Below, in pieces: positions 30,811 through 61,056 of a stretch of 64,000 nt of DNA. The stretch is taken from NCBI GenBank assembly GCA_964017145.1, contig OZ024841.1, forward strand, positions 3,968,001 to 4,032,000, written 5' to 3'. This stretch comes from Agrocybe praecox (taxonomy: Eukaryota > Basidiomycota > Agaricomycetes > Agaricales > Agrocybaceae). Positions within the stretch are counted from its first letter, which is position 1. Every line of letters begins with the position of its first letter. The translations under genes were made by a program, and so were the position numbers. The notes below the pieces were generated by a model. That model did not search any database, was not told where the DNA came from, and saw nothing but the letters and a program-made list of their open reading frames with translations.

Positions 30811-32379
30811 TTAATCGAGACGAAGGATCTTCGCCGCCAAACCTCTTTGTAAAGCGTTGAAGTCATTCGGACTCATCGTCTTTGCCAATCCTTGCACCCA
30901 TGAGGTACCGGCTGGAATATTAACCTGCAACGAGCCCAGATCACGTATCAGTCAACAAAGAAGAGTATTTTCATCCATCACGATGACAGATGTGAGAAGA
31001 TATGATGATGCATGTGACGTACGAATGGATAGTCAATTGAGAACATAATCCTATCCAGACCAATCTGTCCGATATGAAAATTGAGAAGGTCAGTCGCAAA
31101 GTTGCCTGAGGTGGTCTCAAACAAATTGGTGTGGAAGTAAGTCGTGATGTTTTGTTCCATCGGTATCCCGTTTGGAATTTGGCGGAGAAGCTCTATAAAG
31201 CATTTGTGGGTCAATTGAGGCAGACAATTGTGACAGCAAAACAGATAAAACATACGATTATCGATGCGGTTTAAGTCTGATGATATGCGTTCTCCGAGAT
31301 GGCCCATTATGATTTTCAATTTTGGGAAACGACTAAGCATTGAACGCAAATCAGTCAAGATAAGGCAAACGAAAAGGAAACTCACTCAAAAACACCATTA
31401 ACACACAGCCTAAAATTGGTGATAATCGTAAGCATAGACGTATAAAGCAAACGAATAGGCAGACGTACCCGAGGATGTGAGTGGAAAGTTCAGCGGCGAA
31501 TTCTTGAGCTGGACCTTCTAAGAAGGGCGCATGTGCATATGACAAATTCAATATGACAGGAACGCTGGTTCTGGGGTGAAAGTAGACCGGAACGTCGAGG
31601 TCGCTGACTTTTTGCCAAAAGACATCATATGCAGGCTGATCGTAATAAAGAAGAGTTTCTGTAGGAATTGTCAAGTAAGCCTTTTTTGCCTGCTTTGTAG
31701 CTGCAAAGAAAACCCCAAAGACTTACGCCCATCAGGTCCGGATTGCTGATAGTCGTTCAGAAGGGCACCTAGGAAGCCGAGTTTCGTTACAGCCCTTTCC
31801 AACTCCACAGCAGCGACAGTGGCGTTGTGCATCGCGAGCGTGGCGAACCCGCCAAATCGCTCAGTGTTGTTGGAGATTGAAGCCGCTAGAATATTATTAA
31901 TGTCCACTGCCAGTCGTTGTGCCTGCTCTGGATCAGCAATTGCTTGAACACAAGGCTGGGCGCATGAAAGGACCATCTATGTTATCATGTGAGCATATGG
32001 TTTAGGACTCAGAAAATAATCAACCAACATAGTCAACGTGGTTCGCATTCATCCCAGCTAGACGCTGGTTATGAATGTCGAGAAGGTTTGCCCTGAGCTC
32101 AGTGTTCGTGCCATCTGTAGTGCAGGATAAGTCAATCAAGAAAATTTTGAGAAACAATTGCACGCACTGAGAGCAGCTATACCGATGCTATGAGAAACGA
32201 GAGGCCTCAGCATTGAGATGCATAATGAGAAAGGTTGGACGTTACGGTGCGGCTGCAGCTACAAGCTCAGGGATTGTCCATGCTTCTTCCAAAGCAATCG
32301 ACCCCCCGGTGTTTTGAATACGTCGCGCGTAAACGGAACCTGCGAACACCGCAGTGCACAAGTAGAAGACCAACATCAT
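30811..32379 (-). CDS. Secreted amidohydrolase-2 family protein (decarboxylase-type), copy C
   Basis: Nine exons, complement(join(30811..30924,31023..31192,31256..31332,31386..31409,31469..31658,31727..31976,32029..32114,32168..32205,32246..32379)), 360 residues; every phase closes. An N-terminal signal peptide is visible. The ACMSD-type decarboxylase/hydrolase motifs are LEEAW, NLLDIHNQRLAGMNAN, YFHPR, MGHLGER and FSIDYPF, in the order expected for a metal-dependent TIM barrel. It is the best preserved of three paralogues; exon lengths 2-8 are identical to copy B. Secretion is unusual for the characterised decarboxylases, so the substrate may be an extracellular phenolic. That is inference. 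Confidence 0.9.
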
Positions 32380-44420: not shown

Positions 44421-44603
44421 GAAGAAGGCTGGAAAGTCAAACACCAGTCCTGGGTAAACACGGTTACCAGATTCACCAACAACTATCAAGAATTCGAGAA
44501 GTCGCAGAAAAAGCAAAATAAGAAAACAGTAACTAAAATCGAGTTAGAAGCACTGCGATTCCAGGTCGACCTCCAGGCGAACAAGATCACCCATCTCGAG
44601 CTC

Positions 44604-44608
44604 ACCGT
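44604..44608 (+). repeat. Target-site duplication, left copy (ACCGT)
   Basis: ACCGT immediately before the 5' LTR. It is repeated immediately after the 3' LTR at 60481-60485. Confidence 0.85.
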
Positions 44609-45562
44609 TGATACGACTGGTGTTCGGCTGTGACTGAACTGTAACCAAGTATCTATCCTACTTAATTTTCGGCATAATAAACACGTTTATTATTAAGTCT
44701 ACATAAGTACAGAGCGAGGATAGCTACATGTTTGGCTAGGGGAAACCATTCTACGAACCCTAGGACGAACCTTACGAATGCTAGAGTTAGTTATAGTAGT
44801 TCCTCGGAAATGCGTGGAACGCTTTAACAGCGATGCAGCAGGATCGAAGGCTCCTAGGATAATATTCAACCATCAGGAATGTAAGCTAGAGCCTGCTGAT
44901 AATAAGCTTAAACGGCGCTATAGCCACTTATTATTACGCAGTGCGCGATGCGTCCACATCTACCTAATATGGAAACGGAAAGTTCCCACCATATGAAAGT
45001 ACATGTAAACTACTGCCAACGTTCCTAGGAACGCTAACTCAAGGCGGTAGGACTGATCCTAGCATTAACAAAGTACATTACTGGTCCCTAGGAACATAGT
45101 GGGCACTATGCAAACGACGAGACAAGCACTAGTAATGTCAATTAGGACTTGCCGACGTCTGCTCGAGTCAGATCGCTGATAAACCTAAAAGGAGAAGCTC
45201 CTAGGAACGCTTACACATGGTCTTAAGACCCTCGGATATGCGCAGTTACCTTAAACGGCAGTTGTGGAGCCGAGGATTATAGATCCATACGATACCACGG
45301 TACTCCGATGCTTCGGACCCTACGACGTCGATCAATGATCGTCGGCTAATGCGAATAAGCGCCCTCGGGGCGTCATGCTCGAGTCAGTGACTTGCCCAAC
45401 CATACGAACCCTTCCGAGGGTATACAAAAACACGCATGGTACCTACTGGTTGCTTATGCATCGAGTGGAGCTACCTAGCGTTAACCAATAATATTATTTC
45501 CTGTATTTTCCGAGCATTTCCGATCCGCTCCAAGTATTCCTGTATTTTCCGAAACCTAGCAG

Positions 45563-45570
45563 TATATAAG
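45563..45570 (+). promoter_or_regulatory. LTR TATA box (5' LTR)
   Basis: TATATAAG. It places the genomic RNA start near 45590-45600 and implies a long R-U5 leader of about 750 bases. The same sequence in the 3' LTR is at 59687-59694. Confidence 0.6.
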
Positions 45571-45841
45571 CAGCCTGTAAATTACCGTAGCACCCCAGAT
45601 AAACTAGAACCCAGTTGTCCACATTCGAGGAACGCGCATTGAGTTGCAAACTCCTAGGATCGACCTTTGGTACCTAATAAATCTCCGCGAGAGTTGGTTT
45701 TATTGAACAGACTACCTACCGTGTCATTTGAGCATCTTGGCGTTAGTTGAGCGACTTGAGTTAACTTGCAGAGTTCTCGAGGAACCTAAATAAACGTATT
45801 GGGATAAAGTTTCCTCTGTCTTAAGTGACATAAAGCTTAAT

Positions 45842-46035
45842 ACCCGCCTAAGTGGCAAGAATTGTCTAAGTGACGCCTAAGTGGCCCGTTCCTAGGGATA
45901 AGTTCCCTGCCTAAGTGGCAAATTGTCTAAGTGACGCCTAAGTGGCCCGTTCCAAGGGATAAGTTCCCTGCCTAAGTGGCAAATAGTCTAAGTGACGCCT
46001 AAGTGGCCCGTTTAGGATTGAGTCCCCTTTCTAAG
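45842..46035 (+). repeat. Tandem repeat in the LTR leader, about 62-bp unit, three copies
   Basis: The units contain GCCTAAGTGGC, GTCTAAGTGACGCCTAAGTGG and GTTCC(T/A)AGGGATAAGTTCCC. They lie downstream of the TATA box, so they are in the transcribed leader. The same block in the 3' LTR is at about 59966-60159. Confidence 0.85.
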
Positions 46036-46170
46036 TGATTAAAAGACTTTGGATTAAGTATCCAGCCTAAGTGGCGAACTACCTACACACTACATCTTGT
46101 GGAAACACATTAAATCTACGTTTACACTTTCCGAGGAACTTCGCTTTGTGCGTAAGCTACTCAAACACTT

Positions 46171-46452
46171 GTGATCTTCGATCCTAGGAAACGTTCTGTT
46201 GCATTAGAGAGCGTATCTTTAGAGAGAAAACATAATCAACGACGCGTATCGCGTATCCCTCCCACGAAAGAACTAATCACATTGATTGGGTTTTGTTTCG
46301 GAGTATATACAAAGTACAAATCGTACATACACACTCAACCCCGCAGCAAGCACCTTATCTGGAGCCCACCGCGAGGGAGGGTGTTTTCTTTCACTAAAGT
46401 TACGAGTCTCGAAGTGAGAGATTGCATCTTGGTGTCCAGATTAAACGAGTGA
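46171..46452 (+). CDS. Short leader frame starting in the 5' LTR
   Basis: A 93-codon ATG-initiated frame, basic, with no known domain. Its first 62 codons lie within the LTR and the rest in the leader. It ends before gag and is in the same frame as neither protease nor gag without splicing. It may be a uORF or, if spliced, a gag leader exon. The LTR part is duplicated at 60295-60480, where it fuses to host coding sequence. Confidence 0.3.
   Translation: MIFDPRKRSVALESVSLERKHNQRRVSRIPPTKELITLIGFCFGVYTKYKSYIHTQPRSKHLIWSPPRGRVFSFTKVTSLEVRDCILVSRLNE
46360..46377 (+). promoter_or_regulatory. Probable tRNA primer-binding site
   Basis: TGGAGCCCACCGCGAGGG begins three bases after the LTR end. TGG complements the CCA tail. 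The rest would need a tRNA with acceptor 5' strand GCCCACC, which I cannot assign to an amino acid. Confidence 0.5.
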
Positions 46453-46526
46453 ATAAACCTTGACGAGGTTTATTAAAAACAAAAACACAAAAATATTTGG
46501 CTGAAGCTCAATTAAATCGGTTCTAA

Positions 46527-48275
46527 AGTTCCGAGGAAGCTAAAGTGGATAATCAACCGGCAGGACAAGCTAAACGAGTTAGGCAAACGAATAACTCGAG
46601 ACAAGCAGGTTTCGCGGAATTACCTACTAGGGTTCCTAGGAAAAGACAAACCAGAGCGAGTACGCCCTCCCAAAGAGTTCCAGGAGACTTTCCAGCTGAA
46701 CCAAGCAGAGAGCGACCTACAACTCCAGAAAATAGGCAGTTAATCAGACCTCCGAGTGCGCCTCAGAGACCGGTTAATCGACCTACTATCGATACAAGTT
46801 CTCTCGAAGATCCTAGGGAGACAACTTCAGAATCAGATAGCTTAGAAGTCATCGCTAGTCTATTAGACAAGTTGAATCTAGCTCCTAATTCACCAACACA
46901 ACCTACTACAAGTAGACCAACTACTCCGGTATCACCAAAGATGGGTTTCCCTTCTCCTATGAGCAGAGATGCGCCGAAGTTCGATGAAAAGAGTCCCGAG
47001 GAACTCCTCCGCTTCATACAGCGAATGGAAGATCTCTGGGTTCAATATCCTACTGAAGCTGATACGGATGAAAAGAAAATTATTATGTTAGGGAAATATG
47101 CTTCGCCAGTATGCGAGGATGATTGGAAGTCTTTTAACGCATATACCGGGAAAGACTGGTCAAAGTTTAAAGACGAATTGATCGCTTCGTATCCAGCGGC
47201 AATGCGCCTACAAAAAGGATCTCTACACGACCTTGATAAACTATGCTCGAGATATGTAGACAGGAATAGCTTGATGAAAACAGACCTAGAGGAAATCATG
47301 GCGCTGAAACTCAAGTTTACCACTCTATCTCGAAAGCTAGCGGGTCAAGTGTCTGAAAGGGATCTAATACAACGATTCTTGAGCTGTTTAGAAAGAGGTT
47401 TCAGAGACGAAATCTCGCAGGCACTACATGTCATCGACATGGCGCAAAATAAAGATAGTCTAGGTCTAGGAACCGATTTCAAAGTCGCCAAAGTCATGGA
47501 AATTGTTGTAAACATGGCTTTGAGAAGGTCACAATCTATTTTGAACGAAGGGGATAAAGAAACTCGTTCTGAAAAACCTTCCTCGAGAAGGAGAACGATG
47601 GAAACTCAACCCGAGGAAACTCCTGAGTTCTTCCCTAAAATAGAGGAGACCGTGGCTAGGCTCTCTGATGGCTTAAATCTTCTATTAAAGAAGTCAGAGG
47701 TACAGGAAAAGCGAGCAGAAGCTGCGGAGAGGAAGTTTGAAAGCCTACAATCTACCCTAGTAAGTTGGAAGCAATCAGCTGTGGCCCCTCAACCAACGCA
47801 ACCGTCTTCTATGTACCCTAGGCCTTATGATAGGTCTTCCTACAATAATTCAAATGGGTTCCAACCCAGTCACTGCTATTATTGTAGAGAGCCTGGACAT
47901 CGTCTAGCTGACTGTGCGGCAGCAGATAAACATGTAAAGTCGAATTGGATCAAAAGGAATTCCGAGGGAAAGTATGCGCTAGCGTCTGGACAGCCCATAC
48001 CTCTCCAAGGATTCAGGTCTATGAGAGAAGCAGTAGAAAACATGTACCGTAATAAACCAGGGATTATTCCCAACGCCAAAATCCAAGCCATGCAAGGGTA
48101 TTATCCTGAGTATGAAGAAGATTGTGAGATGTTCGTTCAATCCGAGGAAGTTTGCCCTCCCGCGGAAGACATCTCTAGGCGCTTAGACGACTTAGTAAGA
48201 GAGCATGGAAAAGAAGCTCTCGAACGAGTACTCTTTGGCGAAGGTGCGGTAGATGCTTTCGAAAATTTTCCTTAA
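46527..48275 (+). CDS. gag: Gag polyprotein of the retrotransposon
   Basis: Open from 46527 (after a TAA at 46524) to the TAA at 48273-48275. The usual ATG is absent until 46941; GTG at 46545 is the first alternative start and gives 576 residues. The N-terminal ~130 residues are basic and Pro/Arg-rich. The capsid-like part contains PEELLRFIQRMEDLW, WSKFKDELIASYP and LIQRFLSCL. A CX2CX4HX4C knuckle (C444, C447, H452, C457) follows for RNA binding. Gag forms the virus-like particle. The stop codon lies directly behind a -1 slippery site leading to protease. Confidence 0.88.
   Translation, partial: SSEEAKVDNQPAGQAKRVRQTNNSRQAGFAELPTRVPRKRQTRASTPSQRVPGDFPAEPSRERPTTPENRQLIRPPSAPQRPVNRPTIDTSSLEDPRETTSESDSLEVIASLLDKLNLAPNSPTQPTTSRPTTPVSPKMGFPSPMSRDAPKFDEKSPEELLRFIQRMEDLWVQYPTEADTDEKKIIMLGKYASPVCEDDWKSFNAYTGKDWSKFKDELIASYPAAMRLQKGSLHDLDKLCSRYVDRNSLMKTDLEEIMALKLKFTTLSRKLAGQVSERDLIQRFLSCLERGFRDEISQALHVIDMAQNKDSLGLGTDFKVAKVMEIVVNMALRRSQSILNEGDKETRSEKPSSRRRTMETQPEETPEFFPKIEETVARLSDGLNLLLKKSEVQEKRAEAAERKFESLQSTLVSWKQSAVAPQPTQPSSMYPRPYDRSSYNNSNGFQPSHCYYCREPGHRLADCAAADKHVKSNWIKRNSEGKYALASGQPIPLQGFRSMREAVENMYRNKPGIIPNAKIQAMQGYYPEYEEDCEMFVQSEEVCPPAEDISRRLDDLVREHGKEALERVLFGEGAVDAFENFP
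48263..48269 (+). promoter_or_regulatory. Gag-pro -1 ribosomal frameshift site A_AAT_TTT
   Basis: The heptamer AAATTTT, read A AAT TTT in the gag frame, fits X_XXY_YYZ. Gag stops two codons later. The -1 frame is open without any stop from here into the protease frame at 48368. Confidence 0.8.
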
Positions 48276-49474
48276 GTTCAAGGATAGGACCACCTGCAGC
48301 TGGGGCTAAGAGAATAAGTCCGAGAACAGCTACGAACCTTGAGAACAATAACAGCAGGAGTAAAGGGATGTTTAGTAAAGAAAAGAAAAGTGTCAGATTC
48401 GATAAAGAACCAGAAGTTCCTAGAGAAGAGACACAACCAGAAAATAGTAAAAAGAGCGAGACCAAAAGACCGTTGTTACCTTACATAGATGTACCGCCTA
48501 TGTCTAGAGTATCGAGGCCTACGAATACTTCCTCGGACGAGAAGAAAGAGGAAAGACCCGTGCCTGCGTACCGTACTAGGGCACCTGTGGAAGATAGCAC
48601 GGACGGAAATAAAATGGTGGACGACATATTGGATATGTCCATATCAGTACCATTAAAACACTTAGTGGGAAGTGCGCCACACATACGAGAGGCGTTAAGA
48701 AAGAATTTTACGAAAACTAGACAAGCAGTGCTTATGGAGGAGATCCTAGAAGATGATCATGAAACAGAGATGTGTTCCAAGGGACACGAGGAACTTCCCC
48801 TGTATCATGAAATCGAGACAGGCTTAGCTGTAGAACAGTTGCCGGTTTCTCAATTCCTCCTAGCAAAAGATTGTCCAAGCTTGAGTAACCTTCCTGCAGA
48901 CGCCATTGTAGCCAGTGACCCTTATTATCAGTTTGCGCTCGAACATAACGGAGCCGTACCCAAGGAACCTTATAGGGACCGTGCTAGGAACGCTGAAAGT
49001 CTTCGGGAGATTCAAGTGCAAATTAATAATGTAGGATTCGAAAATGCTATCTTAGACAGTGGATCTCAGATTGTATCTATGTCACAACAAGTCGCTGTAG
49101 AGATGGGATTATCCTGGAACCCTTCCCTTAGCATAAATATGCAAAGTGCCAACAACCAGTTAGAACGGACTCTAGGAATCGCAGAGAACGTAAAAATAAT
49201 GGTTGGAGGGATAGTGGTCTATCTACAGATACATATCGTCAGGAACCCGCCTTACAGGGTGCTCCTAGGAAAGCCTTTTGACACGGTTACGACGAGTGTA
49301 GTAAAGACTATGACGGACGGATATGTGGAGGTTCTCTTGACTGATCCTAACTCCAAGAGGCGAGTAGTAATTCCTACTTATGCTCGAGGAAAGGGACCGA
49401 TTGAGCTGCAAAAAGAAAAGTTTGACGAGAAAGTGGTGGAACTACCGCCTAAGTCTCCAGACGACCCTTTTTAA
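48266..49474 (+). CDS. pro: Retrotransposon aspartic protease
   Basis: Lies in the -1 frame relative to gag. The first ATG is at 48368 but the frame is open from the slippery site, so it is most likely made as a Gag-Pro fusion. The N-terminal ~200 residues are charged and linker-like. The catalytic flap domain has AILDSGSQIV (active-site Asp230 counted from 48368; DSG instead of DTG) and the closing VLLGKPFD motif. It acts as a homodimer to process Gag and Pol. The stop TAA at 49472-49474 directly abuts the second slippery heptamer. Confidence 0.85.
   Translation, partial: FSLSSRIGPPAAGAKRISPRTATNLENNNSRSKGMFSKEKKSVRFDKEPEVPREETQPENSKKSETKRPLLPYIDVPPMSRVSRPTNTSSDEKKEERPVPAYRTRAPVEDSTDGNKMVDDILDMSISVPLKHLVGSAPHIREALRKNFTKTRQAVLMEEILEDDHETEMCSKGHEELPLYHEIETGLAVEQLPVSQFLLAKDCPSLSNLPADAIVASDPYYQFALEHNGAVPKEPYRDRARNAESLREIQVQINNVGFENAILDSGSQIVSMSQQVAVEMGLSWNPSLSINMQSANNQLERTLGIAENVKIMVGGIVVYLQIHIVRNPPYRVLLGKPFDTVTTSVVKTMTDGYVEVLLTDPNSKRRVVIPTYARGKGPIELQKEKFDEKVVELPPKSPDDPF
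49465..49471 (+). promoter_or_regulatory. Pro-pol -1 ribosomal frameshift site C_CCT_TTT
   Basis: CCCTTTT, read C CCT TTT in the protease frame, fits X_XXY_YYZ and is followed at once by TAA. The -1 frame is open from 49468 through to 49573 and the whole pol frame, which has no ATG at its own start (GTG at 49573). Confidence 0.8.
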
Positions 49475-52400
49475 ATTGCCTTAATGAACTGGAAGACCAG
49501 GGAGAGGCGGCAGTTGTTTTTGAATATGATCATAAAACCGGAGAAATAAAAATAGAATCGTATACGACACAGGTGGATAAGAAAGCATTTTCCAAGGATG
49601 GCCTAAGAAATGTTTTCTTGTCAAGAGCAGTAGATAGCGAGCATGTAGAGACTGCGGACAAAAGAAAGTTCCAGATTTATCTACAAGATATTAAACCAGA
49701 GGTTAAAGAGAATGAACCTTCCGCTTCAGTTTTCCTAGGAAAAAAGTACAAACCGGTAGACAAGAAAGTCCGACCGGTTTACACTGAACTTCCAGAAAAC
49801 TTGAGAATCCATCGAAATATTAAAGGGGATCCATTGCAGGATATGCCACCCTTAAGTGTTAATCCACCAGACTTCCAACCAACAGGAAGGTACACCGAGG
49901 AACGCATGAAAGCCTTTGACGCTAAGCACGAAGGGGACTTTCTGTGGTCCGAGGAACGGAAATCAATACACGAGCTACTTATGAACCAGAACGAAGCTTT
50001 CGCTTGGGATGATTCGGAAAGAGGAAAATTCAAGGAGGAGTTCTTTCCACCGGTCATTATGCCTACGGTAGAACACACTCCTTGGGTGTTTAAAAACATT
50101 CCAATTTCACCAGGATTGTACGAACCATTGTGCGAGTTAATCCGATCTAAGCTAAAAAGTGGAGTAATGGAACCTTCATGCTCGTCCTATCGCTCGAGAT
50201 GGTTTGCTGTATTAAAGAAAGATGGGAAAAGTCTTCGAATAGTCCAAAGCTTGGAACCTTTGAACGCTGTTACTATAGCACACTCAGGTGTTCCACCAGC
50301 TGCGGAAGAGCTCGCTATTCACTTCTGTGGACGTGCTTGTGTTGGAATGGGAGATTTGTACGTTGGATATGATGAGAGAACTTTAGCTGAAAGCTCTAGG
50401 GATCTTACCACTTTCCAATCACCCTTTGGAGCGCTTAGGTTAACCACCTTACCAATGGGTTGGACAAACTCAGTACCTATATTCCATGACGATGTAACCC
50501 ATATCTTACAGGATGAAATTCCTGAGTACACAAGTCCATATATCGACGACGTAGGTTTCCGAGGACCGGCCTCTCGTTACCAAAATGAGGATGGGACCTA
50601 TGAAGTGTTACCCGAGAACCCTGGCATTAGGAAATTCGTTTGGGAACACTTACAAAATGTAAATCGAATTATACAACGGATGAAATACTCTGGAGGAACT
50701 TTCTCCGGGTATAAAACTGTCATATGCGCAGATGCTGTAGAAGTAGTAGGACATTTATGTTCCTCGGATGGACGTAAGCCTACTGAGAGTCGAGTTAAGG
50801 TTATCCTCGATTGGGGACCTTTGAAAAATGTGTCGGATGTGCGCTCCTTCTATGGAACTTGCGGAGTATTGAGAGCATATATTCCTAGGTTTGCAGATCG
50901 TGCAAAACACATCCACAAGCTAATGCGAGCAGGAGTACCTTTCGAATGGGGTCCTGATCAAGAAAAGAGTATGCAGTTAATGAAGGAAGGGGTCCGAGAT
51001 GCTCAGTGCTTAAAGCCTATAGACTATCATGGTCAGGGAGATATAGTACTAGCAGTGGACACTTCTTATATTGCAGCAGGCTGGTACATCTACCAAGAGG
51101 ATAGTCAAGATCCTAGGAAACGCTACTATGTTACCTTTGGATCTCAGTCCTTGGAAGAACACGAAGCTAGATACTCTCAGCCTAAACGAGAACTCTACGG
51201 ACTCAAATTAGCACTTGAGAAAAATAGAAAACATTTAATTGGAGTCCGAAAGTTGATTGTCGAGACGGATGCTAAGTATATCGCTGGAATGCTTCGCAAT
51301 CCCGATCTTATGCCTAATGCTACAATCAATCGCTGGATCGATCAAATTGGGATGTATCATTTTACTCTAAGGCATGTACCAGGAAAGACATTCGGGCCTG
51401 ACGGACTCTCTAGGAGGCCAAGGCAGCCCAATGATCCACCCTTAAGGGAGGCTGGTTCCGAGGAAATGGAGCCAGAAGCGCCCATCAAAATAGAGTTTGC
51501 GGATCCTAATGGGCCTATGCCGTTGGAAACCGAGACCTTCAAAGATAAGATAGATTCCCGAGGAGGATATCTACAGGAGGTTTCTGAACCATTACCATTA
51601 GAATCTTTCATTAGTCTAATAGAAAAAGACGATGAGTACGAGGGCATTGCTAGAGACGTCGAAGACTTTTCAGAAGAGCTTGCTAAAGCAGATGAGTTTC
51701 GTATGTCGGAAAAAGCTTTCCTAGAAGAACACATCAGTCGAAATAAAGAGGCTCTAGGAGAAGAGAGATGTGCTTATGTGCAACAGCTAGTATCTACACT
51801 TATGTTACCCGAGGAAAACGAATTTAAGAAAATACGATATCCCGAGGAACATAGGTCGGACACAGCTAAAGCACAAGACCACAAGTTAGATTGGGTGATG
51901 GAATGGCACAAGGATCGATCCTTCAGACCGATAGGGATGTCCGAGAAACAGTATAAACGTTTTATAACATTAGCAAAACGATTCATACTATTCGAGGAAC
52001 GTTTGTATCGAAGGGGAGATGGAACCAAGCACCGATTAGTGGTCTCCAAAGATAAAAGGATGTACATGTTGACGGCTGCGCATGATCATGTGGGGCACCG
52101 AGGATTCTATGCGACTAATCAGTTGCTAGTGGAACGATTTTGGTGGCCAGAAATGGAGAAAGATGTGAACTGGTTCGTTAAGACATGTCATAATTGTCAG
52201 GAAAGACAAAAGACATTAATAAGAATAAAACCATCTATTACACATACCCCTTCTATTTTTCAAAGTATGCATGCGGACTGTATCAACATGACTCCTCCAT
52301 CGAACGGTTGCTCGTATATTGTCCATGGAAGGTGCGCTCTATCTTCTTATATGGAAGGGCGACCCTTAAAAAAGGAAAATGGCAAGTCAATCGGTCAATG

Positions 52401-53289
52401 GATCTGGGAAGACATCATTTGTAGATGGGCTTGTATGGTGGAGTTCATAACAGACAATGGGGGACCATTTTTAGCTGCTGCACGATGGCTCGAGGAAAAA
52501 TATGGGATTAAGGGAATTCGTATTTCACCCTATAACTCGAAGGCCAATGGCGCTATAGAAAGACCACATTGGGATGTCAGACAAATGCTGTACAAAATGC
52601 TAGGAAAAGACGATGTGAACAAGTGGTTCTGGTTCTTTCCTTACATTAAGTGGGCAGATAGAGTAACGGTCAGGAAACGTCTAGGATGTTCACCTTTCTT
52701 CATGGTAACAGGGGCATCACCAATTCTACCTTTAGACGCCCAAGAAGCTACTTGGTTGGTTAAACCTCCTGAGCGAATTTTATCAGATGAAGAGTTAATT
52801 GGATTCCGAGCAAAAGCGCTCGCCAAACATAAACTTCATGTGGATGAGATGCGCAAAAGGGTAGACCAAGATAAATACGAGCGTCTATTGAAATATGAGC
52901 AAGACCACAAAGCTGTCATCAAGGACTACGTTTTTAAACCAGGAGATTTGGTTTTGATACGGAATACTACCATAGAAAAATCCTTGGATAAGAAAATGAA
53001 ACCTAGGTACCTAGGACCGATGATTGTCATACGACGAACTCGGGGAGGGTCCTATATAGTCGCTGAAATGAATGGAGCGGTCTTACAAAATAAAATTGGA
53101 GCCTTCAGAGTAGTACCATACTATGCTAGAGAACATCTAGAACTACCTGAGTCGATTCAGACTCTGATAGATATGCCAACTTCGGCACTAGATTTGATTG
53201 AGAATGGACCCGAGGATGTGTACGACCCGATACTAGGAGAAGTGACTCTCCGAGGATCGACTTCAGAAAACGAAAATGAAAATGAGTAA
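49468..53289 (+). CDS. pol: Retrotransposon Pol: reverse transcriptase, RNase H, integrase
   Basis: 1238 residues counted from 49573, plus about 35 from the slippery site. RT: LPMGWTNSVPIFHDD and YIDD at residues 323-326. RNase H at about 490-620: VLAVDTSYIAAG, KRELYGLKLALEK, ETDAKYIAGML. Integrase: an H2C2 zinc finger (about 838-880, HVGHRGFY ... CHNCQ) and the catalytic triad D902, D961, E996 with the usual 34-residue D-E gap. A GPY/F-like YLGPMIVIRRTRGGSYIV module follows near the C terminus. No chromodomain is seen. RT-RH-IN order defines Ty3/gypsy. The frame is intact throughout. Confidence 0.93.
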   Translation, partial: FLNCLNELEDQGEAAVVFEYDHKTGEIKIESYTTQVDKKAFSKDGLRNVFLSRAVDSEHVETADKRKFQIYLQDIKPEVKENEPSASVFLGKKYKPVDKKVRPVYTELPENLRIHRNIKGDPLQDMPPLSVNPPDFQPTGRYTEERMKAFDAKHEGDFLWSEERKSIHELLMNQNEAFAWDDSERGKFKEEFFPPVIMPTVEHTPWVFKNIPISPGLYEPLCELIRSKLKSGVMEPSCSSYRSRWFAVLKKDGKSLRIVQSLEPLNAVTIAHSGVPPAAEELAIHFCGRACVGMGDLYVGYDERTLAESSRDLTTFQSPFGALRLTTLPMGWTNSVPIFHDDVTHILQDEIPEYTSPYIDDVGFRGPASRYQNEDGTYEVLPENPGIRKFVWEHLQNVNRIIQRMKYSGGTFSGYKTVICADAVEVVGHLCSSDGRKPTESRVKVILDWGPLKNVSDVRSFYGTCGVLRAYIPRFADRAKHIHKLMRAGVPFEWGPDQEKSMQLMKEGVRDAQCLKPIDYHGQGDIVLAVDTSYIAAGWYIYQEDSQDPRKRYYVTFGSQSLEEHEARYSQPKRELYGLKLALEKNRKHLIGVRKLIVETDAKYIAGMLRNPDLMPNATINRWIDQIGMYHFTLRHVPGKTFGPDGLSRRPRQPNDPPLREAGSEEMEPEAPIKIEFADPNGPMPLETETFKDKIDSRGGYLQEVSEPLPLESFISLIEKDDEYEGIARDVEDFSEELAKADEFRMSEKAFLEEHISRNKEALGEERCAYVQQLVSTLMLPEENEFKKIRYPEEHRSDTAKAQDHKLDWVMEWHKDRSFRPIGMSEKQYKRFITLAKRFILFEERLYRRGDGTKHRLVVSKDKRMYMLTAAHDHVGHRGFYATNQLLVERFWWPEMEKDVNWFVKTCHNCQERQKTLIRIKPSITHTPSIFQSMHADCINMTPPSNGCSYIVHGRCALSSYMEGRPLKKENGKSIGQWIWEDIICRWACMVEFITDNGGPFLAAARWLEEKYGIKGIRISPYNSKANGAIERPHWDVRQMLYKMLGKDDVNKWFWFFPYIKWADRVTVRKRLGCSPFFMVTGASPILPLDAQEATWLVKPPERILSDEELIGFRAKALAKHKLHVDEMRKRVDQDKYERLLKYEQDHKAVIKDYVFKPGDLVLIRNTTIEKSLDKKMKPRYLGPMIVIRRTRGGSYIVAEMNGAVLQNKIGAFRVVPYYAREHLELPESIQTLIDMPTSALDLIENGPEDVYDPILGEVTLRGSTSENENENE

Positions 53290-53347
53290 AAAGACAAATA
53301 TATTATGAGTCTACTCGAATATAGCTTGTACCCTAGGAAGGATAAGA

Positions 53348-54708
53348 CTAGTCCTTTTTAGCGTCAACCTGAGCTTTCTCGAGGGAGACGATTTGGCGCT
53401 GAATGAATTGACGCTGCCCAACAGACTGCCAGATCTGGTAGTCAACATCCTGAGCACTGTCCCGGAGACACCTAAGGTGACGCTCAAGTGCAGCGACATC
53501 GCGGTTTTGAGGGAACTTCGCAGTGATGCTCTCAGCAATGTTCATAGCGACGGCTGTAGATTGAGGCGAGAAGGTGTTTGGAAGAATAGTGTTCTCGAGG
53601 GTAACTAAAGCAAGAAAATTAGTATCCGAGGAACAAAACACATAAGAGAAAATCAAAACGTACTGTCCACAGTATCCTTGGTTTTGCTCTTCTTGACCGA
53701 CTTGGACGCTTTCTTGTAAGATCCAGAGTCTGTAGCAATTCCAGGAACGTCCTCGAACTCGAGCATGCGAGTTTCAGCACGTTTCTCGGCCTTGGAAGGT
53801 TTCGAGGAAGAGGAAGCCTCCGGCTGGTACGAGTAATGAATCAGTCCCAATTTCCTAGGAAGAGAAATAAGGTACTTGCCTTGGGAGAGAGGACCTCTCT
53901 TTTAGATCCTTTACCTTTGCGGCTCTGCGACGCGGGGGGAGCGCTGACAATAGAAGCCACCTCCACCATGTCGTCGTCGACTTGCATAGCCTGCACCGCG
54001 TGAATAAGGTTCATAAGGAAAGGGGATAGGGTTTTCATTACCTCGTCAGAAGTCAGCTCAAAATTAGAGGTAGTAGAAGATACGACCTCTACCTCTTCCG
54101 AGTCAACCTTCTCTTTATACAAACGACCAGAGCGTTGTTTGTTCTAACGAAAAGCGTCAGTCAAAACGATCCGAGGAAGTAAAAGGAATGGACATACCGC
54201 GGTGTGTGCTCCATTATCTGCAACCTCAGGGTCCGCAGTTGTGGCTTTTTCGACAGTTTCGGACGAAGTCTTCTTCTTCAGATTCATGAATGGAGGACCG
54301 CCGGGGCAGTAGAGACCAGTAGAAGTGCGCTTGGCATAGATGAACTTGATGAGAAGGCTAACGGACTGGGCCTCCTTGGAGAACCTCCTGGAATACTCGC
54401 TGCCTAAGCGTACGAGTGCTGCAAGAGAATCTCGGAGATTGAACACCAAGTCAAACGCCTCTTGTCCAGCGAGCCAGACGTTGTCTGACTGTTCGAACCA
54501 GGGAGCCTGAGCGATGTCGAGGGAAGCGTGTTAAGCAGAGAAGAGCGGTCCTAGGAAGGTCACTTACAAGTTTCTCGCAGATGAGAGCCAAGTGAGCGGA
54601 GGCTGACTCGCCATTTTTCTCCGAGGAAATGGTTTCGGCTTTGGCAAGGTGGTATTGCACACCTACCGCAGCTTTTACCTCGAGGACGCTGGGAGAAAGG
54701 TCGGGCAT
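53348..54708 (-). CDS. Antisense cargo gene C of the retrotransposon, unknown function
   Basis: Five exons, complement(join(53348..53604,53664..53823,53880..54143,54198..54506,54568..54708)), 376 residues; phases close. One intron uses a GC donor (GCAAGT at 53879). The product is helical and acidic: an N-terminal domain with GVQYHLAKAETIS and LVRLGSEYSRRFSKEAQS, a conserved-looking GLYCPGGPPFMNL, Lys/Ser-rich linkers and a C-terminal QRQFIQRQIVSLEKAQ helix. No known domain. Its stop lies 58 bases from the pol stop, tail to tail. TATAAAG is at 54779-54785, 71 bases before the ATG. Confidence 0.7.
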
Positions 54709-54778
54709 GCAAGAAAAAGCGTGTACCGGGAAGATAGCACCTTGGTGTTGAATCCTAGGACCTCGAAAATCGACCCGC

Positions 54779-54785
54779 CTTTATA
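54779..54785 (-). promoter_or_regulatory. TATA box of antisense gene C
   Basis: TATAAAG on the minus strand. The 12-mer GAAAATCGACCC (54765-54776, plus-strand reading) and CCTAGG lie beside it and recur at gene A. Confidence 0.5.
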
Positions 54786-55078
54786 GTGCTGTGGTAAAAT
54801 TTAACAGAGTCGTCATTCCGAGGAACCATGTGGCCCCGCTCGGGAGGACATGTGCGCGAGGAGACACAACAATGAAAATTTTACTCGGACTACGAGAGCG
54901 GAAGTGCAAATTGTATTGAGGAGCGAGTTGGAGCATAATGGCTGCATATGGGCAACGGTGGATCGATCAAAAAAGGGGTACAGTACAAATACTACTCTAC
55001 TGATCGAATGAAAACTTCACCATTCCGGTGAAGCGCATTTGGAACCCTAGGAATGAAGCCCGCTCTGGAAAAACTCTT

Positions 55079-55897
55079 CTAAGATATTTGGCCTTGGTGC
55101 CACATGCGAAACTTGAAAATGCGCTGAAGTTTGCTGGTTAGTGCGAGTGGAGCGTTGGATGCGAGGAACGATTCAAGGCGATCCCCCCACGAACCGCCGC
55201 GCGACTGAAACCCAGTTGCATTAATAATTTAATCCGAGGACAGTTCTTGCGATCATAACGTACCATTACAGTACGCTCGGAACACCTAGGAAGTGTGTGG
55301 TCGAATAAAACACGACATATCCAGGCGTTCATCGGCGAGGCAGTGAAATTCATGTACCATATGACCACCCAGTGAAAGCTAATGTCAATGAATATGTGTC
55401 CAAGCTCTGTGCCGTACTTGATGTCGTCGGGATGGAATTGCATCTAAGAGGAGTGAGTTCTCCTCGCATACAACATAAGGACGACGAGTTGGTCTTACCA
55501 AGGCAGCGGTTACCTTGAGTATGAGCTCCAGGGGAGGCAAGTTACGCTCCTTTTGGGGTTCCTCGGTACCGTTGGCAGGATTGGAAAGTGCTTCGTCCAG
55601 GCGTTGTTTGGCGCTGACAAGTGCGAACCATCGTTGATCAGTTCCTAGGAACGTTACTCGAGCAGGATTAGCCTGGATAGGCGTCTCTAGCAAATCGTCA
55701 AGTATGTCCAGATACAACATAGCCTCAGTTTGATACTGGTCCATGGTATCTGACAATGCTTGGGGGTTGAAGATGACTCCTAGGGGTGGGTAGACGGACA
55801 TAGCCAAGGAGCCGTCGAGGTTCAGCCTTTCGTTTGTCGCACCTTTTATGGGCCCCTGGAAGATCGCGCTGGATACTTTTGTTGCACGCGGCCACAC
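55079..55897 (-). CDS. Antisense cargo gene B of the retrotransposon, unknown function
   Basis: Three exons, complement(join(55079..55204,55264..55443,55499..55897)), 234 residues, all introns phase 0. The N-terminal part is ordinary soluble-protein-like (VYPPLGVIFNPQALSD, YLDILDDLLETPIQ); the middle exon is aromatic and Cys-containing (DISFHWVVIWYMNFT). No domain recognised. It sits between genes C and A in the same orientation. The upstream region has GATTTTCCTAGGTCGACC near 55991-56008 but no clear TATA box. Confidence 0.6.
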
Positions 55898-56034
55898 GGA
55901 ATTAGGCCATCATTTTTTTCCAATCTGGGAAGATGATTAGCCGTTTTTGGTTGTGCTGCTAAGCGAAACACGGGCATCTCCGGCATATCAGATTTTCCTA
56001 GGTCGACCGGGAGGTCGCTTCTTTAAGTTGGGGG

Positions 56035-56047
56035 GAGCCGGCCTACC
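56035..56047 (+). promoter_or_regulatory. Internal second polypurine tract
   Basis: AAGTTGGGGGGAG, identical to the 13-mer that abuts the 3' LTR (58719-58731). It lies between antisense genes B and A. It may act as a central plus-strand primer or mark the former end of a shorter element. Confidence 0.6.
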
Positions 56048-56330
56048 AGCCAACAGAGATATCCTAGCAACTTGGAAGAGCCGTCTTCTTTTAAGTTTCT
56101 CAAGGGCTTATAAGTTTTCTTGAAATACTTAAGGGAGATTCTTAGAAATGTTGTGCAAAGTAAACGAACAAGAAAAAAGATTATAAATTTCGTTGGGGCA
56201 AAGAACCCGCAAAAAGGGATATACGTTGTACAAAAATATAAAGAACCCCGACCTACGAAAACGCTACTCTAGAAAATGAATAAGACATAGTGTTCTAATT
56301 TAATAGAACCGAAAAGATTTTCTAGGAGAG

Positions 56331-58362
56331 TTAAGCAGGGGGGGCGCTTGCGTCATCATTCGCAACGACTGGCTCCATGACCACGTCCTCTTCCGCCCGA
56401 GGAACCTCTATAACCAAGTCATCCTGATCCGGAGGCAACCCGGCGGTGCTAGCAGAGGTATTGACGATGGTAGAAGGTGCGTCAACGGGGATGTGGAAGA
56501 AGGGGAGAGACGAGTCGAGCAGGGTGCGAAGACGAGGTGGAAAGCGAGCCTTGATCGCATCAGGCATGCGGCGAAGAAGAAGTTCGAGCGTTTGGATACG
56601 GTCGTCCGCGTCGGAAGGAGGAAAGTTCAGTGCAGAGAGTTGACGGCAGAACGCCTGAAAGACGTGCACGTCCTCGAAAGCGGAGCGGATGATAGCGCCG
56701 GGACCTTCTGGGAAAAGAACGACCGTGTCACGAATGAACTGCTGCATTTGGATCTCGAGATCGATGGATATGGCCTGCTGGGACCTAAAGAGGTCCAAGA
56801 GGCGACGTTCCTGTTCGCGAGATTCGCGGGCACGCTCGACAAGGTCCTTGAGATCTAAAAAGAAGACGTTTAGTAATAGATTTTTGAGAAAGACAAAGAA
56901 ATATGGGACTTACGATGAATGGAAAAAGTACCGCGCTCGTAGGCAGCGTTGCGGTGAGCGAGTCGGACTGTGTCCTCCGCCTTGTGATCACAGCACGTAA
57001 TGTGGCGGGTGTCACAAGTACCGCAGAGTTGTCCGAAGACGGCAGGGGTACATTCGAGGAGTTGACCAACGCACACGCTGCATTCCGTTGCATGCTATGA
57101 AAAGAAACGTTTAGCATAAAGGAAAAAGATTGCGGAAGCAGAGACTTACAGGTTCGACGTGCGGAGTGAACCCTAGGACGTCGTCCCATCGAATGACGGA
57201 CGACAGGGGAGCAGAATAGGCGGAAAGGTTGGCGGCACGCTGCTCAGCGGCTGCCTTCTTGCCCGACTAAGAAATAAAAAGTCAGCTCATAAGGAGCAAG
57301 GACTGGAAAAATAAAATAAAATAGAAAACATACCTTATGAGTCGTATGGGGCTCAGTCTTGACGAAGTCCTGAGTAGCCTTGATACTACCTCGTTTGGGA
57401 TGCTTCGCGGAGGGGTCGTCGTCGGCCACTTCCGAGGAAGTGTGGACGCGTTTGTTGCGAAGAGTGCCAATACGAGAAGGTGGTGGAAGCAAGACTTCCG
57501 AGACGAGCTTTCGAGTAGAAGAGCGAGTGGAATGAACGGGCGTGAGAGTCGCGATAGAAGGGAGAAGAGAGCCACTAACTTCGACACCATCGGAGCTGGG
57601 AGCAGGGACAGGCGTCGCGCCGTCCTCCGATACCCCCTCGAGCTCGTCGATGTCCGGCTGGACTAGAGGTGCGTCTTCGTCCTCGGAACTGGAATCGACG
57701 ACGTGCGTTGCAGCTTTCGAAGAGGATGGACGCTCGGGCTTAGGGCGCGGGTTTTTGGACGAGGTTTTCTTCGCACCCTTCGCGTTCTTCGTGTTCTTCG
57801 TGTTCTTCGTGTTCTTCGCGTTCCTTGTTGCAATCTGCTTTTGAATCTTGGCATACTGGTTCAAGAATTCATCGGCGTCGGATCCAACGTCGCACTGGTT
57901 CCATAATTCGGCAGTCGTGGCCAGAGAGGGGGTACCGTTAACGTAGAATTCGTCGAAAACCTCCACTACTGGTTCCGATGGAGGACAAAACATGAGACAA
58001 AGAGTCGCCACAGTAGCCCATCGAAGGCGAAACCGGCATAGGAGCTTATGAGCTTCGGGACGAGTCCAAGAACCGCTCTAAGGATGAGGGCGGTGTAAGG
58101 ACATGGTAACATAAGAAAAAGAATGTGAGGGACGTACGATGTGGGGTTGCATGGCCTCTAGCACAGGGACCGCATACCCGGCGATGGTCAAAGCCCTTTG
58201 TTTTGAACGGACCGAGGCAAGGAAAGGCTTCACAAGGTCGTTCAGAGTATCAAACTCGGATTTGAGAAGCAAGTAGGCCTTCTCGGCGTCGAGAGAAGAC
58301 AAGGAGTCAACGTCGTACTCGATAAAGCCGGCCGGGTACGAGGCCTTACCAAAGGTAGACAT
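56331..58362 (-). CDS. Antisense cargo gene A of the retrotransposon: Cys/His-rich protein
   Basis: Five exons, complement(join(56331..56854,56914..57094,57150..57266,57334..58077,58138..58362)), 596 residues with closed phases. N-terminal domain (GKASYPAGFIEYDVDSLSS) of unknown fold. A Lys/Asn repeat (NTK units) and a Ser/Asp/Pro-rich disordered middle follow. Then comes a compact Cys/His cluster starting CSVC and containing CGTCDTRHITCCDHK, which looks zinc-binding. A coiled stretch (LVERARESREQERRLLDLF) and an acidic tail end the protein. A nucleic-acid or chromatin role is only a guess. TATA-like ATATAAG lies 58 bases upstream of the ATG. The gene ends 361 bp from the polypurine tract. 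Confidence 0.75.
57785..57832 (-). repeat. 9/12-bp minisatellite coding Lys-Asn-Thr repeats
   Basis: Repeated GTGTTCTTC units (plus-strand reading) inside antisense gene A, coding successive KNT units; four near-perfect copies. Confidence 0.75.
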
Positions 58363-58419
58363 AGGGATAAAGGGAAGGAAAGAAAAGGGGGACTTAGCGA
58401 ATAAACCCTACCAGACCTC

Positions 58420-58426
58420 CTTATAT
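58420..58426 (-). promoter_or_regulatory. TATA-like box of antisense gene A
   Basis: ATATAAG on the minus strand, 58 bases upstream of the ATG, beside CCTAGG and the 12-mer GAAAATCGACCC at 58434-58445 that is shared with gene C. Confidence 0.5.
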
Positions 58427-58723
58427 CCTAGGGGAAAATCGACCCTGAACCAGAAGCGATTACGACGTGACTCGTATCAAACTTCTCAAGAGTTTATTTC
58501 GTTATTCGCAAAGGCCTTAAGGCACGGAGAACTCGAAACTAAAAATAGCATGAGCTTGTAATTAATAAAGAAAAGCTTACAAGTAATATGGCTAAGTCCG
58601 ATAGTAAAAGACCTGTCAAAGAGAAAGATAAGACGAGAGTTTTTATCTGATAGGCAAGCAAAAACCAGAAAACGGCAGAGGCCTAACTCGAAGTATGACT
58701 GAGGACAGTCCGAATTATAAGTT

Positions 58724-58732
58724 GGGGGGAGA
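58724..58732 (+). promoter_or_regulatory. Polypurine tract for plus-strand priming
   Basis: GGGGGGAGA directly abutting the TG of the 3' LTR. Confidence 0.85.
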
Positions 58733-60480
58733 TGATACGACTGGTGTTCGGCTGTGACTGAACTGTAACCAAGTATCTATCCTACTTAATTTTCGGCATA
58801 ATAAACACGTTTATTATTAAGTCTACATAAGTACAGAGCGAGGATAGCTACATGTTTGGCTAGGGGAAACCATTCTACGAACCCTAGGACGAACCTTACG
58901 AATGCTAGAGTTAGTTATAGTAGTTTCTCGGAAATGCGTGGAACGCTTTAACAGCGATGCAGCAGGATCGAAGGCTCCTAGGATAATATTCAACCATCAG
59001 GAATGTAAGCTAGAGCCTGCTGATAATAAGCTTAAACGGCGCTATAGCCACTTATTATTACGCAGTGCGCGATGCGTCCACATCTACCTAATATGGAAAC
59101 GGAAAGTTCCCACCATATGAAAGTACATGTAAACTACTGCCAACGTTCCTAGGAACGCTAACTCAAGGCGGTAGGACTGATCCTAGCATTAACAAAGTAC
59201 ATTACTGGTCCCTAGGAACATAGTGGGCACTATGCAAACGACGAGACAAGCACTAGTAATGTCAATTAGGACTTGCCGACGTCTGCTCGAGTCAGATCGC
59301 TGATAAACCTAAAAGGAGAAGCTCCTAGGAACGCTTACACATGGTCTTAAGACCCTCGGATATGCGCAGTTACCTTAAACGGCAGTTGTGGAGCCGAGGA
59401 TTATAGATCCATACGATACCACGGTACTCCGATGCTTCGGACCCTACGACGTCGATCAATGATCGTCGGCTAATGCGAATAAGCGCCCTCGGGGCGTCAT
59501 GCTCGAGTCAGTGACTTGCCCAACCATACGAACCCTTCCGAGGGTATACAAAAACACGCATGGTACCTACTGGTTGCTTATGCATCGAGTGGAGCTACCT
59601 AGCGTTAACCAATAATATTATTTCCTGTATTTTCCGAGCATTTCCGATCCGCTCCAAGTATTCCTGTATTTTCCGAAACCTAGCAGTATATAAGCAGCCT
59701 GTAAATTACCGTAGCACCCCAGATAAACTAGAACCCAGTTGTCCACATTCGAGGAACGCGCATTGAGTTGCAAACTCCTAGGATCGACCTTTGGTACCTA
59801 ATAAATCTCCGCGAGAGTTGGTTTTATTGAACAGACTACCTACCGTGTCATTTGAGCATCTTGGCGTTAGTTGAGCGACTTGAGTTAACTTGCAGAGTTC
59901 TCGAGGAACCTAAATAAACGTATTGGGATAAAGTTTCCTCTGTCTTAAGTGACATAAAGCTTAATACCCGCCTAAGTGGCAAGAATTGTCTAAGTGACGC
60001 CTAAGTGGCCCGTTCCTAGGGATAAGTTCCCTGCCTAAGTGGCAAATTGTCTAAGTGACGCCTAAGTGGCCCGTTCCAAGGGATAAGTTCCCTGCCTAAG
60101 TGGCAAATAGTCTAAGTGACGCCTAAGTGGCCCGTTTAGGATTGAGTCCCCTTTCTAAGTGATTAAAAGACTTTGGATTAAGTATCCAGCCTAAGTGGCG
60201 AACTACCTACACACTACATCTTGTGGAAACACATTAAATCTACGTTTACACTTTCCGAGGAACTTCGCTTTGTGCGTAAGCTACTCAAACACTTGTGATC
60301 TTCGATCCTAGGAAACGTTCTGTTGCATTAGAGAGCGTATCTTTAGAGAGAAAACATAATCAACGACGCGTATCGCGTATCCCTCCCACGAAAGAACTAA
60401 TCACATTGATTGGGTTTTGTTTCGGAGTATATACAAAGTACAAATCGTACATACACACTCAACCCCGCAGCAAGCACCTT
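58733..60480 (+). repeat. 3' LTR
   Basis: Same length as the 5' LTR. The one difference that I found is C at 44802 versus T at 58926. It carries the same TATA box (59687-59694), tandem repeat block and the ATG at 60295. Confidence 0.93.
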
Positions 60481-61056
60481 ACCGTCAAGAACCTGGAGGA
60501 CGATATGGACGATCTGGCAGCAGCGAGGGTTGCGGAAGCGGCATTGAATTCTCGACTTAAAGGGGTCAACCAGGAGACAGCGACGGCGGATGTCCAGCAG
60601 GATAAAATTGCTGTAGGCAATGACAAAATTCCGGAGTCTTCAGTTGCGTTCGAATCTTCCGAGGAAGATTTTCGTGTGTCTGCACCCCCCGCCCCGACTG
60701 ACCCTACCCTGGCGACCGAAAACGCTGATGCCTGCGCTAACACATCCAACATCCTTACCGAAGATCTGTCCACTGCGCTCACCGACCCTACCGAGTCCAC
60801 CGAGTCCGCTGCTGCCTATGCTAACTCATCCAACATCCTTACTGCCGATCTGTCCACTGCGTTCACCGACCTCACCGACCCCACCACGTCCACTGAGTCT
60901 GCTGCTGCCTACGCTAACCCATCTAACATCCCAATTTCAGAGGAACTGGGTATCAATACCATCCCGATGTCTCAAGCAGCACCCGAATTACGTCTCGACG
61001 AACTTGTGGATTATGGTGACGATGACGATGGTGAGATATATAAGTCGGCATCGTAA
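60295..61056 (+). CDS. LTR-initiated chimeric frame fused to the host gene 3' half
   Basis: An ATG at 60295 in the 3' LTR opens 62 LTR codons that pass through the junction in frame into ACC GTC AAG and the 191 remaining host codons, 253 residues in all. The LTR TATA box lies about 600 bases upstream, so an LTR-driven transcript could make it. The host part is acidic, Ser/Thr-rich and contains two or three diverged repeats of a SNIL-x3-LSTA-x-TD unit. Translation is unproven: several short upstream frames precede this ATG in the leader. Confidence 0.45.
   Translation: MIFDPRKRSVALESVSLERKHNQRRVSRIPPTKELITLIGFCFGVYTKYKSYIHTQPRSKHLTVKNLEDDMDDLAAARVAEAALNSRLKGVNQETATADVQQDKIAVGNDKIPESSVAFESSEEDFRVSAPPAPTDPTLATENADACANTSNILTEDLSTALTDPTESTESAAAYANSSNILTADLSTAFTDLTDPTTSTESAAAYANPSNIPISEELGINTIPMSQAAPELRLDELVDYGDDDDGEIYKSAS
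60481..60485 (+). repeat. Target-site duplication, right copy (ACCGT)
   Basis: ACCGT directly following the 3' LTR, matching 44604-44608. Confidence 0.85.
60486..61056 (+). pseudogene. 3' part of the host gene split by the retrotransposon
   Basis: Continues the exon begun at 44353. The codon GT|C at the junction and the frame agree exactly with the 5' part after removal of the element and one ACCGT. It begins with a helical VKNLEDDMDDLAAARVAEA stretch, then an internal repeat (SNILTEDLSTALTDP and SNILTADLSTAFTDL), ending in an acidic DYGDDDDGE tail and TAA. Confidence 0.75.

Follow-up and report, generated by a model that had tools for sequence, protein, structure and literature searches.

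The window analysed here is a stretch of 64,000 nucleotides from Agrocybe praecox (contig OZ024841.1; C2:3968001-4032000 of a genome searched as 59 Mb in 347 contigs), and it contains a Ty3/gypsy long terminal repeat (LTR) retrotransposon that spans positions 44609-60481. Between the pol gene and the 3' LTR of this element, and thus inside its LTRs, three genes can be modelled on the minus strand, which we call A, B and C. The block holds 10 introns of 54-67 nt (four in A, two in B and four in C), and the reading phase closes across every one of them. Nine of the introns are GT-AG, and the third intron of A is GC-AG. An earlier, sequence-only reading had proposed three intron-bearing minus-strand genes of 376, 234 and 596 residues with 10 introns in phase. 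The lengths of A and C and the intron count stand; the length of 234 residues for B could not be reproduced, and our model of B has 202. Gene A lies tail to tail with pol, with 58 bp between the end of A and the pol stop codon, while the start of C is 370 bp from the 3' LTR. A TATA-like box is present ahead of all three genes, and six such matches (two of them overlapping) lie on the minus strand of the block, compared with 2.3 in shuffled sequence.

The block is a constant component of the element. The genome was searched with the block itself (5443-bp query; 20 matches, 17 of 17 candidates scored), with the reverse transcriptase (RT) region (49 matches, 95 of 212 candidates scored) and with the LTR (49 matches, 40 of 116 candidates scored). 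Among the 49 RT matches there are 11 copies of at least 98% identity, and the block adjoins all 11. It is uninterrupted in eight of these (the window copy and L018-L024). The remaining three are interrupted, by an insertion near the end of the block (L025/L034), by an insertion of about 860 bp (L026/L029) and by a split of about 30 kb (L027/L028). All nine LTR pairs found at element spacing among the LTR matches scored carry the block as well. Each of the four copies checked has a target-site duplication of its own (CCGT, ACGT, GCGT and CCGC), and as their LTR pairs differ by 1, 0, 0 and 0 bases, these insertions are recent. The block has therefore been copied to new sites together with the element. 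A one-off insertion or a neighbouring locus is ruled out by the 11 RT copies, the LTR pairs and the per-copy duplications taken together. The sequence-only reading had assigned the block to the element from its position inside the LTRs and from a dispersed motif shared with the rest of the element; both observations are real, and copies without the block, which would have made it a one-off, did not appear among the RT copies and LTR pairs. No recurrence of the three genes in related gypsy elements was seen: sequence-match searches of the genome gave no match to A, B or C near five sister pol copies (61-62% identity). RT sequences of sister families lie at C6:1983434, C10:1305202, C7:2857386, C4:4035542 and C2:3827880. 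The cassette may be confined to the family of the window element, or it may have diverged beyond reach in the sisters; within the genome, every match to A or B lies in a copy of the window-element family.

LTR elements copy themselves via RNA, so cargo with introns is expected to be stripped of them; here 10 introns persist. In a count that covered the window element and 13 copies and took introns longer than 30 nt, all 113 intron-copies retain their GT/GC-AG ends. Losses and truncations of introns are confined to places where an adjoining exon is lost or truncated too, and wherever both exons next to an intron are present, so is the intron. This retention fits the antisense orientation of the introns to the genomic RNA, and it agrees with the earlier proposal that introns placed in this way survive retrotransposition. 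It is also in keeping with a retroelement being able, by means of the antisense orientation, to own normal intron-bearing genes.

Comparison among the copies bears on whether the frames encode proteins. Between C of the window and the allele in copy L024, the synonymous divergence (Ks) is 0.956 and the nonsynonymous divergence (Ka) 0.123, giving a Ka/Ks of 0.129 over 592 codons, with 79, 60 and 248 changes at the first, second and third codon positions. Over aligned codons 401-500 the ratio is 0.027. All five exon indels between the two alleles are multiples of three (12, 6, 36, 6 and 6 nt), compared with one of nine intron indels. For B, comparison with L027 gives a Ka/Ks of 0.122 (108 codons). 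The distinct variants among 12 copies were further compared with a null of the same mutational spectrum (2000 draws). In C, 55 of 107 variants are synonymous when L024 and L025 are left aside (null 35.2) and 280 of 484 when they are included (null 145.3), and neither value is reached in any draw. In B the count is 25 of 43 (null 14.3, reached by 1/2000). Gene A compared with the decayed copy L030 has 19 synonymous variants of 39 (null 12.5, reached by 38/2000). Judged from these sequence comparisons, C is under strong purifying selection and B under purifying selection, and the coding status of A is suggestive.

The remainder of the element has the make-up of a Ty3/gypsy retrotransposon (Table 1). 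It has LTRs (one mismatch between the pair), a target-site duplication, a primer binding site (PBS) and a polypurine tract, and gag, protease and RT-RNase H-integrase follow each other in the Ty3/gypsy order. Protease, RNase H and the integrase zinc domain were matched in this order; the profiles of the RT and of the integrase core gave no match to the pol protein of the window and do match several of its relatives. The copy of the polypurine tract core AAGTTGGGGGGAG between B and C, by which C comes to be flanked by two such tracts, is found in L027 too, despite the diverged spacer around it. This second tract may serve for internal priming, or it may be left over from the acquisition of C. 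The element was inserted within an exon of a host gene, where reading through the empty site (44561-44608 joined to 60486-60560) gives an open frame that includes LQANKITHLELTVKNLEDDMDDLAAARV. Elsewhere in the window there are three diverged copies of one gene region (16782-17622, 28409-29242 and 31248-32089; 73-85% identity in ungapped pieces) and a further duplicated pair (2272-3298 and 9263-10293; 80-90%).

Table 1. Features of the retrotransposon and of its minus-strand block, in window positions (ORF, open reading frame)
Feature	Positions	Strand	Remarks
Target-site duplication CCGT, left	44605-44608	.	flank comparison
5' LTR, 1749 bp, TG...TA	44609-46357	+	
Dispersed motif CCTAGG / CCGAGGA, extended TTCC(T/G)AGGAA	44759-60312	.	
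PBS, 18-mer	46360-46377	+	the same 18-mer adjoins the remaining copies of the family and numerous sister elements
gag-like ORF (stop to stop)	46527-48275	+	CCHC knuckle-like match under the Pfam cut-off
ORF with DUF4100 and aspartyl protease	48179-49474	+	both matches above cut-off
pol ORF, 1278 aa, RT-RNase H-integrase	49453-53289	+	
Gene A, 376 aa, 5 exons	54708-54568, 54506-54198, 54143-53880, 53823-53664, 53604-53348	-	
TATA-like box of A	54779-54785	-	77 nt upstream of ATG; putative function
Gene B, 202 aa, 3 exons	55801-55499, 55443-55264, 55204-55079	-	
TATA-like box of B	55843-55850	-	49 nt upstream of ATG; putative function
Internal copy of polypurine tract core AAGTTGGGGGGAG	56025-56037	+	between B and C
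Gene C, 596 aa, 5 exons	58362-58138, 58077-57334, 57266-57150, 57094-56914, 56854-56331	-	
C exon 4 cysteine cluster CX2CX6CX8CX2CX6C	56914-57094	-	
TATA-like box of C	58419-58427	-	65 nt upstream of ATG, overlaps a CCTAGG motif; putative function
Polypurine tract ahead of 3' LTR	58719-58732	+	
3' LTR	58733-60481	+	1749 bp, TG...TA
Target-site duplication CCGT, right	60482-60485	.	flank comparison

The dispersed motif is present at 4.0 per kb in the LTR and internal region, compared with 0.29 per kb in the remaining window. It has sites in the LTRs, in the putative promoter regions of the antisense genes and in introns (four of four in A and one of two in B). For the coding sequences, the occurrences of CC(T/G)AGGAA were compared with 1000 shuffles of synonymous codons that keep the protein and the codon use. 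There are 6 in gag (0.36 expected), 2 in the protease ORF (0.08), 10 in pol (0.75) and 4 in B (0.42), numbers that none of the shuffles reached. Gene C has 2 (0.20 expected, 13/1000) and gene A has 1 (0.10 expected, 97/1000). Because the motif exceeds the synonymous-codon expectation, it is likely under selection as a nucleic-acid signal. Across the genome, TCCGAGGAA was counted 367+433 times, compared with 180+193 for the reversed pattern.

The fourth exon of C encodes a cluster of six cysteines, which are kept in the three alleles compared. Its two CX2CX6C halves have the spacing of fungal Zn2Cys6 clusters. The stretch that follows the cluster is predicted by AlphaFold to be a long helix (predicted local distance difference test score, pLDDT, of about 75 for the first 20 residues and 51 for the whole model). 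We do not claim membership of the Zn2Cys6 family for C, because Pfam finds no PF00172 match at E up to 5; the spacing fits and the profile does not. Both C and A contain basic low-complexity stretches, which are frequent in nuclear proteins. Part of what the second exon of B (55264-55443) encodes, GHIFIDISFHWVVIWYMNF, is hydrophobic and may be a segment that spans a membrane. No Pfam family was found for A, B or C, no relative of A or C in the PDB, and nothing naming A, B or C in an Rfam search of the element; the three genes had been said at the outset to belong to no recognised family, and the Pfam and PDB results concur.

Copies L024 and L025 hold a divergent C allele, with 66-82% nucleotide identity to the window over approximately 56484-58500 (in 200-bp windows), and outside the C region their block is 91-100% identical to that of the window. 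The sequence flanking this C module is 99% identical on the pol side and 98-99% on the LTR side. Another breakpoint is seen in L027, where identity is 63-81% in the spacer between B and C and at the 3' end of C, and 96-100% in the remainder of C. The alleles of C are, by all appearances, exchanged between elements as a module. An older relative, L031, resembles the window element at 92-94% in LTR and leader DNA and has a decayed C at 35-45% protein identity. This C sits 371 bp from the LTR (370 in the window element), and its cysteine exon is 78% identical over 60 columns with the cysteines kept.

Further relatives of C are scattered over the genome. Two short elements, 6149 bp apart at C5:3016566-3028619 (L032, L033, L035 and L036), have LTRs about 92% like those of the window element. 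They hold a protease/pol piece and a C relic adjoining the LTR, and from the positions of their PBS sites (3022453 and 3028602) their internal regions would be short, about 4.4 kb each; they are probably tandem deletion derivatives. A weaker C-like place at C8:2458987 (38%) has no family RT match nearby. At C4:377549-378171 there is C-like sequence in two pieces without stops (38% and 31% identity), with a gap of 50 nt exactly at the boundary of exons 4 and 5, and none of the LTR and RT matches scored lies near it. It may be a host relative of C or an older one. Outside the genome, the metagenome sequence P0121 was the sole match of the exon 5 alignment, at 81% identity across 80% of the exon. 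A protein search with the whole of C gave nothing among candidates of 0.55-1.75 times the query length, a range that excludes exon-sized metagenome frames, and a pol scan of viral contigs gave no relative.

The reading that we put forward, with slightly less than even confidence, is that of a Ty3/gypsy element with three predicted minus-strand, intron-bearing genes that likely have their own promoters, and in which C would be a nuclear DNA-binding protein acting on the repeated motif. The three genes would be transcribed from the TATA-like boxes 49-77 nt upstream of their ATGs and then spliced. Their introns would pass through reverse transcription intact, because their orientation is wrong for splicing in the sense genomic RNA. 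Through its cysteine cluster and the predicted helix that follows, C would bind TTCC(T/G)AGGAA in LTRs, coding regions and introns, presumably as a dimer on this near-palindromic site, and would maintain or regulate the expression of its own family. The alleles of C pass from one element to another as a module, and A and B would be accessory proteins. A stronger form of this proposal, which we consider unlikely, would see an antisense operating system of three orientation-shielded spliced genes, with C a TTCC(T/G)AGGAA-specific factor that protects or controls the copies of its own family and whose alleles are swapped like phage immunity modules. Several observations count against a role of this kind for C. 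To the absence of a PF00172 match are added a loop between the cysteines that is not basic, unlike that of the Zn2Cys6 family, and the poor AlphaFold models of exons 4 and 5 from three-row alignments (pLDDT 43 and 51). The motif is found in none of the four introns of C, and only two of the four motif sites within the swapped module are kept in the L024 allele. The CCGAGGA form is oriented 23 sense to 5, an excess that could reflect an RNA signal. As regards the other two genes, L023 has a stop in B, and the pooled variant test for A (14 synonymous of 30, null 10.2, reached by 199/2000) is not significant.

The orientation of CCGAGGA (sense strand in 23 of 28 cases) speaks for a somewhat unlikely alternative, in which the accessory genes are real and the motif is unrelated to C. 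The motif would then serve self-pairing or packaging of the genomic RNA, or a host factor, and A, B and C would have other nuclear jobs, such as import or help with integration. It fits this alternative that no DNA-binding profile matches C and that UUCCUAGGAA and UUCCGAGGAA are predicted to self-pair as RNA (-13.8 and -9.0 kcal/mol) better than the reverse complement form UUCCUCGGAA (-6.9 kcal/mol). The strand bias, however, is 9 to 3 outside gag-pol, which is not significant (p 0.15), and within gag-pol it may be caused by codon choice; the presence of the motif in the LTRs and in the putative promoters of the antisense genes also speaks against this alternative. Minus-strand transcription could itself be the function, with antisense RNA to the 3' region of the element tuning its activity and the proteins secondary. 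Such tuning has been proposed for plant elements (PMC7264820), and the tail-to-tail arrangement of A and pol at 58 bp would suit it. We regard this as quite unlikely, since the frame-keeping exon indels and the purifying selection that acts on C and B show that their proteins matter.

That host genes were captured once in antisense and are carried as passive cargo is improbable. The short introns have a normal look, and the C-like places at C4:377549 (with its gap at the exon 4/5 boundary) and C8:2458987 lie away from family RT matches; against this, A and B match only copies of the window-element family in the genome, C is still under selection at a Ks near 1, and the introns of A are filled with the motif of the element. 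It is highly improbable that the frames are chance ORFs joined by chance splice signals. For C and B this is refuted by Ka/Ks, the variant tests, the codon-position pattern, the frame-keeping indels and the retention of splice sites. For A the rejection is not complete, given its pooled variant test, and A, B and C have no known domains.

The predicted gene set of the window element bears on the question of what gypsy antisense ORFs do, and we compare it here with known systems as they are described in the literature. A minus-strand protein gene in a retroelement is also known from human T-cell leukaemia virus type 1 (HTLV-1), the HBZ gene; that is one gene, compared with three carrying 10 introns here. 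HBZ is a bZIP factor and is spliced from a start in the 3' LTR. Maize Grande (gene23), rice RIRE2, Silene Retand and fungal Boty likewise have antisense ORFs that lie between pol and the 3' LTR; the protein of the Grande frame is nuclear, and the frame has a promoter of its own (PMC7264820). In Retand, the antisense ORF with a TRP28 domain is present in 97% of clusters and is a proposed DNA binder (PMC11963269). The window element resembles these plant Ty3/gypsy elements in the position and antisense orientation of its frames, in their presence across copies (conserved in 11 of 11 family RT copies) and in the proposed nuclear or DNA-binding role and, as regards Grande, in a promoter of their own, which is predicted here. 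It is unlike them in that it carries three genes interrupted by 10 introns; the main text of PMC11963269 makes no use of the word intron, and a Pfam search found no TRP28 (PF04195), the domain of the Retand frame, in A, B or C. Boty is described as a fungal LTR element with one antisense ORF at the same position (PMC7264820). The titles and abstract openings of the open-licence PMC papers that the searches listed mentioned no fungal LTR element whose antisense genes are spliced. This agrees with the sequence-only reading, which had held antisense frames to be known in some plant gypsy elements and three spliced genes to be unusual.

A further likeness is to VANDAL and its VANC proteins, an anti-silencing system of Arabidopsis, in which element-encoded proteins bind short motifs that are dense in their own transposon, introns included (PMC5735166). 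The motif of the window element is likewise dense in the element and rare in the remaining window, TCCGAGGAA being the form counted genome-wide, and by analogy C would work in a VANC-like manner. VANDAL differs in that it is a DNA transposon and that its motif lies mostly outside coding sequence and expands through tandem repetition (PMC5735166), whereas in the window element the motif also lies in coding sequence and binding by C is a prediction. The combination of C alleles that are divergent and under selection, element backbones that are almost the same and a motif spread along the whole element offers a case, open to testing, for a system of regulation or self-recognition encoded by a retrotransposon. 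Compared with the systems described in the literature searched, three features of the window element are new: the presence in a single element of three antisense genes with several introns each, the swapping of the C module, and a motif that reaches into the gag-pol coding sequence.

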